Source: a virus. From it: a DNA stretch of 28,011 bases. Below, piece by piece: positions 2,569-4,458 of this stretch (positions are counted from its first letter, which is position 1; each line of letters begins with the position of its first letter). The notes below the pieces were generated by a model. That model had not been told where the DNA came from and did not search any database. It was given only the letters and a program-made list of their open reading frames with translations. The stretch spans positions 1-28,011 of the IMG/VR virus record IMGVR_UViG_3300009180_000173. The stretch is one strand, 5' to 3'. The position numbers and the translations under genes are program-made.

Positions 2569-3296
2569 TTTTTTAAATATTCGTTTATAAAAATTCGTTT
2601 AAAAATATTGGTTATTGTGCTCAAATCTTTGTCGCTAATTTTTTCAAAATTATTTGCCTTTAATTTTAGAAAATCTGCATAAGGTTGCTTTTCGCCAAAT
2701 AGCTCGAAATTTCGCCTTAATTCGTTTTCGTGTACTCTTACCGCCCTTTGATAATAATCAGCCTTTAAATCGTCTGTAATAGCGTGCAGAGAGTATTTTA
2801 AAAGCCAATCATACAAGTACAAAGGTAAAATTTTAAAATCGTAATCTTTTTTGCGCCATTCCTCAATTTCTTTTAAGCGTTCTTCGTCGCTCATTTGGTA
2901 AGCAATTTCTTTTAATTTCGGCGGTGGCGTTGCAAGGATGCGCTCATTGTTAAAAATTCGGTAAGCGTCCATAATTCTGCAAAAGTATGGTAGCGTAAAT
3001 TGATCGTAGTGTTTGACATCCACGTCAAGTTTTCCCGTAACAGCCAACTCAAACGCTTCAATTATTTCTGTGGACAATTTATGTCCAAAATTTTTTTTAA
3101 TAAAAGTAACGTTAAACATATCTTCTTCGGGTGTTGGATATTGCATTTTGCGAAGTCCAATTAATAAAAATATCCTGTGAAGTATTGGGATTAATTCAGC
3201 GTTGGATAAGGTTATAATTTTCGTCGAGTTCTGGCATTCCGTTAACCCATCTGTTGGCGTAGTCGTCCATGAGTTGTTGATTAGTTGGTTTTGCAT
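2565..3296 (-). CDS. hypothetical protein next to replication gene
   Basis: A 243-residue protein. The part from about residue 30 onwards is helix-rich (ELIPILHRIFLLIGL, then EIIEAFELAVTGKLDV and a YFCRIMDAYR segment). Similar proteins lie beside DUF4373 replication genes in Bacteroidota phages, so a helicase-loader or replisome accessory role is possible, but this is inference from position. The ATG at 3296 gives a 101-nt overlap with the upstream gene, which is unusually long. There is no later ATG before Met51, and an ATT start near 3218 would remove most of the overlap. The first 25 residues (Thr/Asn-rich) look unlike a conserved domain, so the true start is uncertain. Confidence 0.6.
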   Translation of the reverse strand: MQNQLINNSWTTTPTDGLTECQNSTKIITLSNAELIPILHRIFLLIGLRKMQYPTPEEDMFNVTFIKKNFGHKLSTEIIEAFELAVTGKLDVDVKHYDQFTLPYFCRIMDAYRIFNNERILATPPPKLKEIAYQMSDEERLKEIEEWRKKDYDFKILPLYLYDWLLKYSLHAITDDLKADYYQRAVRVHENELRRNFELFGEKQPYADFLKLKANNFEKISDKDLSTITNIFKRIFINEYLKK

Positions 3297-3945
3297 TTTG
3301 ATTTTGTTTTAGTTCGAATAATCCTTTGTAGCCATTCGCGATTGATTGATGGATAATTTCGCGCGCGGTATTCTGATTTTGATTTGATAATTTATAAAGT
3401 GTATTAAATGCGATTTGTTCTGATTCGATTGTTTTGTATGTAAATTTAAAATTTGTTTTTTTAAAATTTAACCATGTATTCCAATCATTTAAAAAATCTT
3501 CACTAAAATTATTAGTATTAATAATTTTAATAGTTTCAATTTCTTTTACTTTACTTTTCTTTACTTTGTCAGTGTTACGTACACTTTCGTAATGCGTTAC
3601 ATTTTTTGTAACATCTTGATTTTCACGCCATTGTGCAATTCTTTTTCTGTTATTTTCATTTTTTATTTGATACTTTTCACTAAACTTTAGTAAACTTTCA
3701 TTAAAACTTTCTCCATTGTTTGAACAAATAAGCCCTAAAGTTTCCATAAACTCCCAGCATTTATTTAATTTTTTGCCTACGTTTAATTGTGATTTTAATA
3801 CAACTGTTTTAATAGGTTTTTCCTGTTGAGCAAATTTTTCAAGTAAAGTGTAAAATAATCCCAAACCTTCATATCCAAAGTTTATGTATAACTCCGATAT
3901 TTTTTCATCATTAAAGGCGTTTGAATCGTGTAAGTAATACTTCAT
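3196..3945 (-). CDS. Lin1244/DUF4373-type phage replication protein
   Basis: A 249-residue protein. Residues 1-75 (MKYYLHDSNAFNDEKISELY then GYEGLGLFYTLLEKF) match the Lin1244/Lin1753-like winged-helix domain (DUF4373) found at the N-terminus of phage replication initiators and DnaD-like proteins. A Lys-rich linker follows, and a C-terminal domain (WNTWLNFKKTNFKFTYKT and an IHQSIANGYKGLFELKQ segment) is typical of the Bacteroidota phage versions. It probably binds the phage origin or recruits helicase. I chose the ATG at 3945 because the domain begins there. An in-frame TTG at 3984 and an ATG at 3966 would make the protein start inside a terminator-like hairpin. Expression may be controlled by the two-hairpin leader immediately upstream. 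Confidence 0.75.
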   Translation of the reverse strand: MKYYLHDSNAFNDEKISELYINFGYEGLGLFYTLLEKFAQQEKPIKTVVLKSQLNVGKKLNKCWEFMETLGLICSNNGESFNESLLKFSEKYQIKNENNRKRIAQWRENQDVTKNVTHYESVRNTDKVKKSKVKEIETIKIINTNNFSEDFLNDWNTWLNFKKTNFKFTYKTIESEQIAFNTLYKLSNQNQNTAREIIHQSIANGYKGLFELKQNQNAKPTNQQLMDDYANRWVNGMPELDENYNLIQR

Positions 3946-3950
3946 AAAAT

Positions 3951-3990
3951 AAAAAAAGGTTAGCATTGATAGTAGCAACGCCAACCTTTT
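3951..3990 (-). terminator. terminator-like hairpin at the replication gene start
   Basis: On the minus strand, AAAAGGTTGGC (3990-3980) pairs with GCTAACCTTTT (3964-3954), giving an 11-bp stem with one G-U wobble. The 15-nt loop contains GCTACTATC. The stem runs into a seven-U tract that ends only a few bases before the ATG at 3945. This has the form of an intrinsic terminator, but its position directly before a start codon fits an attenuator or a block to translation better than a plain operon end. Its loop is complementary to the loop of the neighbouring hairpin at 4005-4038. Confidence 0.75.
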
Positions 3991-4004
3991 AAAGTTGAAA
4001 TAAA

Positions 4005-4038
4005 AATTTCGTTTCGGCTACTATCTCGCAACGAAATT
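4005..4038 (-). repeat. leader hairpin with loop complementary to next hairpin
   Basis: A perfect 9-bp inverted repeat (AATTTCGTT at 4005-4013 and AACGAAATT at 4030-4038) encloses a 16-nt loop. In the loop GCTACTATC (4017-4025, plus strand) is the exact reverse complement of GATAGTAGC (3968-3976) in the loop of the adjacent hairpin. In the minus-strand RNA this hairpin comes first and is followed by a short U-rich stretch. It lies directly downstream of a promoter-like box, so it would form at the very 5' end of the transcript. Confidence 0.7.
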
Positions 4039-4043
4039 GTATG

Positions 4044-4051
4044 CAAATATA
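4044..4051 (-). promoter_or_regulatory. putative -7 box for replication-gene leader
   Basis: The minus strand reads TATATTTG, matching the Bacteroidota -7 consensus TAnnTTTG. The predicted transcription start, 3-6 nt further on, falls at the base of the first leader hairpin. The -33 element is weak: the expected position (about 4071-4074) reads TTTT rather than TTTG. The box lies in the gap between the GIY-YIG gene and the replication gene, where a promoter would make sense. Confidence 0.45.
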
Positions 4052-4074: not shown

Positions 4075-4458
4075 TTATCTACAATTTGCGTGTACACTAT
4101 TAAGCGCTGGTTTAAAACGTTTTATCATATTATGTTCTATTTTTAAGGTTTCTTTTATTGTTGGATTTTCTCGAAGTATATCCATACAAAACCATAAAAC
4201 ATTATTAAAAGGCATATCCTTATCCTTTAAATGACATAACAATCGACCTCTTAATTTTTTTGACATTCCAATATAAACCAATTGGTCATTATAAAATAAA
4301 TGATAAATTCCTAAACAATCTGGTATTGCTTTTTTGCCGTATTTATTAACAAGCATTTGTAAATTAAATGGCAATCCAATAATATCTCCATCTACAATAA
4401 AAGGATTTTCTGCTTTGTCTATGTCTTCTAAAAATTCTTGTCCAATATAAGTTTGCAT
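4075..4458 (-). CDS. free-standing GIY-YIG family nuclease
   Basis: A 127-residue protein with a GIY-YIG catalytic domain: GIY at residues 50-52, YIG at 62-64, Arg70/Arg72 in KKLRGRL, His76, the metal-binding Glu108 in KIEHNMIKRF, and Asn120 in KPALN. All the expected catalytic positions are present, so the enzyme is likely active. The first 48 residues precede the domain and show no known motif. The protein lacks a recognisable C-terminal DNA-binding repeat of classical homing endonucleases. It could be a recombination or repair nuclease, or a mobile free-standing endonuclease lodged in the replication operon. Its ATG follows the DnaA-like gene by 2 nt. Confidence 0.78.
   Translation of the reverse strand: MQTYIGQEFLEDIDKAENPFIVDGDIIGLPFNLQMLVNKYGKKAIPDCLGIYHLFYNDQLVYIGMSKKLRGRLLCHLKDKDMPFNNVLWFCMDILRENPTIKETLKIEHNMIKRFKPALNSVHANCR

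Follow-up and report, generated by a model that had tools for sequence, protein, structure and literature searches.

The replication operon of what appears to be a Bacteroidota phage is preceded by an RNA leader in which two hairpins carry complementary loops. On balance this leader is probably a kissing-loop element that would act in trans, providing negative feedback on replication and exclusion of phages with the same loop code. It lies in a stretch of 28,011 nucleotides from virus record IMGVR_UViG_3300009180_000173 (the window). That an RNA element with loop-loop pairing (predicted kissing) is present before the replication gene is well supported, and its anatomy suggests a self-recognising RNA switch through which a phage would control its own replication and perhaps protect it. 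The features concerned are the following.

4044..4051, minus strand: predicted -7 promoter element TATATTTG (TAnnTTTG), identified by sequence; position kept in relatives
4038..4039, minus strand: predicted start of transcription (base of hairpin A), placed by the 4-5 nt spacing
4005..4038, minus strand: hairpin A, with a 9-bp stem and a 16-nt loop, at the predicted RNA 5' end; kept in relatives
4017..4025, minus strand: recognition sequence of loop A, GATAGTAGC; relatives have other letters but the complementarity is kept
3991..4004, minus strand: linker between hairpins A and B, 14 nt, A/U-rich
3951..3990, minus strand: hairpin B and U-run, resembling an intrinsic terminator; a terminator-like hairpin followed by a U-run is found in relatives too
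3968..3976, minus strand: loop B recognition sequence GCTACTATC, a 9-nt perfect complement of loop A; covariation
3196..3945, minus strand: replication initiator gene, 249 aa, with a Lin1244_N/DUF4373-like N-terminus and an O-like C-terminal part
4075-4458 in the window, L123:2085-2504 and L248:5113-5466: GIY-YIG/HNH endonuclease genes

Hairpin A (4005-4038) and the terminator-like hairpin B (3951-3990) had been described in an earlier note on this DNA and both were found where it had placed them. The stem of A is formed by AATTTCGTT (4038-4030) and AACGAAATT (4013-4005), that of B by AAAAGGTTGGCGTTG (3990-3976) and CAATGCTAACCTTTT (3968-3954) with CTACTAT as the apical loop. The 9-nt complementarity between the loops, GATAGTAGC and GCTACTATC, is likewise present and far from chance: none of 3000 Markov shuffles yielded a 9-nt loop-loop element of this kind, and 18 of them contained some 9-nt inverted repeat. 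GATAGTAGC occurs in exact form just twice in the 28-kb window, and a search there for a third copy of the loop sequence was negative. The minimum free energy of the leader is -28.9 kcal/mol (z = -4.1), a stability reached by none of 200 shuffles. The U-run at 3957-3951 is followed by ATTTT and then by the ATG at 3945; it ends 5 nt before the start codon (3951 versus 3945) and not at the ATG, as had been stated. By eye, the linker and the 5' arm of B can also be folded into a weak hairpin at 3976-4000 (CAAC/GTTG), a possible competitor of the terminator. The corresponding pairing in L016, which belongs to the subfamily of the window, is CAAAC/GTTTG. Such details vary among subfamilies, a small linker/B-arm hairpin being found in the family of the window and a separate middle hairpin in others.

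The TAnnTTTG box that had been noticed beside hairpin A was dropped as stand-alone evidence because the motif is not enriched in the AT-rich window (49 sites versus 51 expected). Nevertheless, TATATTTG agrees with the -7 element of Bacteroidota. In flavobacteria transcription starts 4-5 nt past this element (PMC6847099), a spacing by which the RNA is predicted to begin with stem A or immediately beside it (4039/4038 in the window), in agreement with the start at the base of A that had been proposed. The position of the box is conserved: of 81 non-redundant relatives, 68 have it shortly upstream of hairpin A, compared with 2.3% of random stretches, and in nearly all of these 68 the distance between its end and stem A is 2-12 nt. 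In the relatives a TAnnTTTG promoter is likewise followed by hairpin A, which coincides with the predicted start of the RNA, then by hairpin B and its U-run and finally by the start codon; in most types hairpin B ends shortly upstream of this codon. In 69 of 76 cases the antisense strand folded less well than the sense strand (p = 6e-13). The predicted promoter and the U-run are arranged for transcription of the gene strand.

Covariation of the loops in related phages, proposed in the earlier note as a check, gave a clear positive result: relatives, with well over a hundred leaders, keep the hairpins and the complementarity of the loops while the letters differ. The same hairpins and layout were present in the first relatives (the IMG/VR loci L003, L010 and others), with the loops GGTGGTATC/GATACCACC and GTAGAAGC/GCTTCTAC. 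The loops came in over 30 sequence versions, always together with a matching partner, and closely similar initiator genes can have different codes (L010 versus L013). Within one backbone the codes GTCGTAT/ATACGAC, GTCGTTT/AAACGAC, GTCGGAT/ATCCGAC and GTCGCAT/ATGCGAC occur; in near-identical leaders with the first and the second of these, almost nothing differs except one compensated loop pair. As the whole-leader MAFFT alignment misregistered the B loops, pairs were counted formally on 15+15-nt hairpins excised from ten hairpin pairs. All 150 cells were paired, both-side changes were seen in 12 of the 15 pairs (including 5 of the 7 loop-loop pairs) and the covariation score was 0.95 versus 0.24 for shuffled hairpins, whereas all slid registers collapsed. 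Because the hairpins and their register were chosen by complementarity, these counts illustrate rather than prove the covariation, and the unbiased evidence comes from two other sets. When leaders were selected solely through the conserved linker, with neither loops nor protein as a criterion, 101 of 101 had loops complementary over 7-9 nt. When the loops of the first and the last predicted hairpin were chosen without using complementarity, a complement of at least 6 nt was present in 50 of 67 distinct leaders, against 7.6% for loops swapped between leaders. A control for direct repeats between the loops was negative, with at most 5 nt shared in direct orientation. These comparisons show that the predicted loop pairing has been maintained by evolution despite the hypervariable letters.

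The occurrence of the element was surveyed by two protein scans, which yielded 160 loci. A strict detector (at least a 7-nt perfect complement, both segments in hairpin loops and a T-run after the second) was positive in 118 of 165 leaders and in 27 of 7257 control windows from the same loci (0.4%); most of these 27 were due to the same element seen from the opposite strand or to a true element located one gene farther upstream. Where the gap upstream of the initiator gene was at least 90 nt, the element was detected in 105 of 115 cases, and where it was less than 50 nt in 1 of 31. Its presence depends on the initiator gene having a leader. On inspection by eye, seven of the ten exceptions also have the element, its match being shorter or shifted (L041, L006, L116, L167, L169, L174 and L183), and in L123 and L185 it is situated upstream of the first gene of the operon. 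In 1.38 Mb searched on both strands (phage records taken at up to full length, and the window), it was found about once per record, before the initiator. One phage (L235) has a second element with a different code: a GTGAGAT/ATCTCAC leader precedes an HNH-type endonuclease gene at L235:2860-2943 (= L070:2860-2943), the initiator leader there being GTACGAG/CTCGTAC. Searches of cultured phages by BLASTN with the leader and by TBLASTN with the initiator of the window gave no matches. In the cultured phages that were opened, Flavobacterium phage 1/32 and Porphyromonas phage005, the gene for the DUF4373 homologue is located close behind another gene. The gut Alistipes and Parabacteroides homologues were without the element according to the strict detector.

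The initiator of the window matched Pfam PF14297 with an E-value of 3e-4, which is below the curated cut-off, and the PHROG for O-like replication initiation with an E-value of 8e-6; upstream of it the window encodes a GIY-YIG protein and a protein with a DnaA C-terminal domain. The link with replication suggested before was borne out, since the same leader precedes several initiator families. Linker-selected leaders were found before Lin1244_N, DUF1376-like, DnaD_N/HTH_36, DnaA-like and DnaD-like initiators, sometimes with a GIY-YIG gene next; O-like initiators are also among the families preceded by the same leader, and a nearly identical leader stands ahead of initiators of the MKSNTYYF and the MKYFLHD type. 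In L048 and L069 the first 330 nt of the initiator gene are identical and the leaders are different. Such swaps between initiators identify the leader as a control module of the replication operon that is exchangeable independently of the initiator. On two initiator gene trees the code has changed at least 18 and 16 times, and cross-pairing over at least 6 nt is possible in only 2.2% of ordered type pairs. In this respect the variability of the loops resembles that of incompatibility or immunity groups. The initiators themselves are also mosaic: those of the window (3196-3945), L003, L010 and L016 have a conserved C-terminal half and quite different N-terminal domains, which suggests that the DNA-binding part has been swapped between phages. 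Endonuclease genes of the GIY-YIG or HNH kind recur next to the replication operon or within it, in some cases separating the leader from the initiator.

As the repeats are inverted and lie ahead of a replication initiator gene, they could be thought to act as DNA, either as half-sites for a protein or as origin hairpins that covary with a changing binding protein. This was already disfavoured by the data described above and is very improbable. The repeats are in the loops of covarying stems and show a strand bias, the promoter and the U-run are laid out for transcription, and code and initiator vary independently, same-code leaders being found before unrelated initiator families and the same initiator with different codes.

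The structural part of the original description, in which hairpins and complementarity are kept while the letters change, is supported. The switch was described there as one within the same molecule; hypervariable loops that do not cross-pair and cassette swaps point rather to a specificity determinant that would also act between molecules. A leader acting solely in cis would be an attenuator, in which kissing of A and B on one RNA tunes terminator B or translation of the initiator, perhaps together with a protein or a growth signal, and in which loop diversity reflects compensated drift and recombination. Both partners are indeed always on one RNA with a core spacing of 46-60 nt, and compensated single changes on near-identical backbones fit cis and trans action alike, as intramolecular contact would equally produce compensatory changes. 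Such contact explains the non-cross-pairing codes and the leader swaps less readily. Orthogonality is not needed by a contact in cis, whereas codes change often (at least 34 changes) and seldom cross-pair, whole leaders have been exchanged upstream of identical gene starts and two different codes occur in one phage. We consider an exclusively cis-acting attenuator rather unlikely. Action in trans is suggested by the rare cross-type matches, the different leaders on identical initiator DNA (L048/L069) and the two codes in one phage (L235).

For the trans-acting leader, a mechanism modelled on satellite phage P4 is the most economical. Many transcripts would end at hairpin B, giving an RNA of about 85 nt with both loops. 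This terminated RNA probably serves as a small self-specific antisense RNA on sister leaders, like the CI RNA in P4. It would recognise same-code leaders only, because its loop B would bind the nascent loop A and its loop A the loop B, so that two kissing contacts would be made with the sister leader. Within a nascent transcript, contact between A and B in cis would disturb terminator B. A leader RNA provided in trans would occupy loop A and block this contact, whereupon B would form and transcription would stop. The more transcripts are stopped at B, the less initiator would be made. The feedback would thus be negative, dose-dependent and proportional to the number of gene copies, and it would time or limit replication. 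A co-infecting phage with the same code would be blocked and phages with other codes would be ignored. We infer the exclusion role, the action in trans and the direction of control from sequence comparison, and the direction (more binding, more termination) is the least certain step of the model.

An attenuator or a translational switch, as originally proposed, is a plausible outcome judging from the anatomy. Loop-loop contact could instead act mainly on translation or RNA stability and not on termination; with B near the start codon, kissing would alter access or decay, and its sign could be positive. In most types little sequence separates the end of hairpin B from the ATG, and mRNA structure around the start codon tunes initiation in flavobacteria (PMC6847099). 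Moreover, L004 and L006 (4875-5000 in both) have three hairpins, the third of which repeats loop A (AACACAC or CAGCAC) directly before the ATG. As hairpin B and its U-run have the anatomy of a terminator in almost every type and the structure leaves the start codon free, this possibility is regarded as quite improbable.

Termination by a trans-acting leader RNA has its closest counterpart in P4, where an antisense RNA derived from the leader of the replication operon, the CI RNA, pairs with complementary sequences of that same leader (seqA/seqC) and causes premature termination of the replication genes (PMC4825925). The leader of the window also precedes a replication operon and has internal complementary segments, as P4-type immunity requires, and the A-B-A' order of L004 and L006 is similar to seqA-seqB-seqC. 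However, P4 has three segments and the window two, a third being present only in L004 and L006. The CI RNA is processed from the transcript, whereas the predicted partner here would be ended at hairpin B. P4 acts in lysogeny, while no integrase was found here (36 records). The host phylum differs as well, and the present code consists of 7-9 nt loop-loop matches in more than 30 variants. In ColE1 RNAI/RNAII, R1 CopA/CopT, IncK/IncB RNAI and pT181, short complementary loops kiss and set initiator expression, and incompatibility is determined by the letters of the loops; IncK1 and IncK2 are set apart by one nucleotide of RNAI (PMC10724649) and pT181 has an antisense-controlled transcription attenuator (PMC3753616). 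Short complementary hairpin loops of variable specificity, with predicted kissing, are found in the phage leaders too. In the plasmids the antisense RNA comes from the strand opposite its target, which makes its complementarity automatic. In the phages both partners are in separate hairpins on one strand, so that complementarity needs compensatory change, and structure, promoter and U-run are all on the gene strand. The element would work like the P4 and plasmid kissing-loop systems and yet belong fully to neither, having no opposite-strand antisense RNA, mostly two segments and no lysogeny genes found.

Leader-derived antisense RNAs that act on their own transcript are also found in phages as the C4 RNA of P1 and the N15-type RNAs, which control an antirepressor rather than a replication initiator; we know of no hypervariable loop code in these. 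Classic examples of RNA-loop codes that govern the sharing of a cell by genomes come from plasmids, and one is known for satellite phage P4. No report was found of such a code as a widespread hypervariable module in ordinary-looking tailed phages, and a literature search, with most subscription journals outside its range, gave no description of such an element. In Rfam no covariance model matched above its gathering score and only chance-level matches were obtained (E <= 1).

The leader is assigned to a Bacteroidota phage on the basis of the promoter type and of two contigs binned with a Chitinophagaceae MAG. A tyrosine integrase (PF00589) was not detected in 36 virus records including that of the window, nor a resolvase or a ParA-like ATPase in the 19 records tested, although the records may be incomplete. 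The missing integrase makes prophage immunity in the sense of P4 unlikely. Control during lytic growth or co-infection is more likely, the lifestyle being judged from gene absence in records that are perhaps incomplete, and the benefit would then have to lie in copy control or exclusion when phages co-infect lytically. The wider proposal is put forward tentatively, at less than even confidence: Bacteroidota phages without detectable integrases may share a widespread RNA code for self and non-self, in which terminated leader RNA would shut off same-code replication operons, giving feedback and same-code exclusion, and negative frequency-dependent selection would have produced dozens of mutually non-pairing codes. 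If action in trans is true, phage incompatibility groups would be readable from sequence, some co-infection outcomes in one of the major bacterial phyla of water and soil would be explained, and nature would offer many candidates for orthogonal RNA regulators that are compatible with flavobacterial promoters.

Two loci deserve separate mention. L237 and L241 are on one contig (31708 bases) in which no integrase was found; 123 bases carrying the leader are common to both, as if the ends overlap, which would mean a complete circular assembly. At L219:3163-3229 a GATGCAA/TTGCATC element with a promoter is present without a clear gene downstream, and it could be an unannotated small RNA or the leader of a missed gene.
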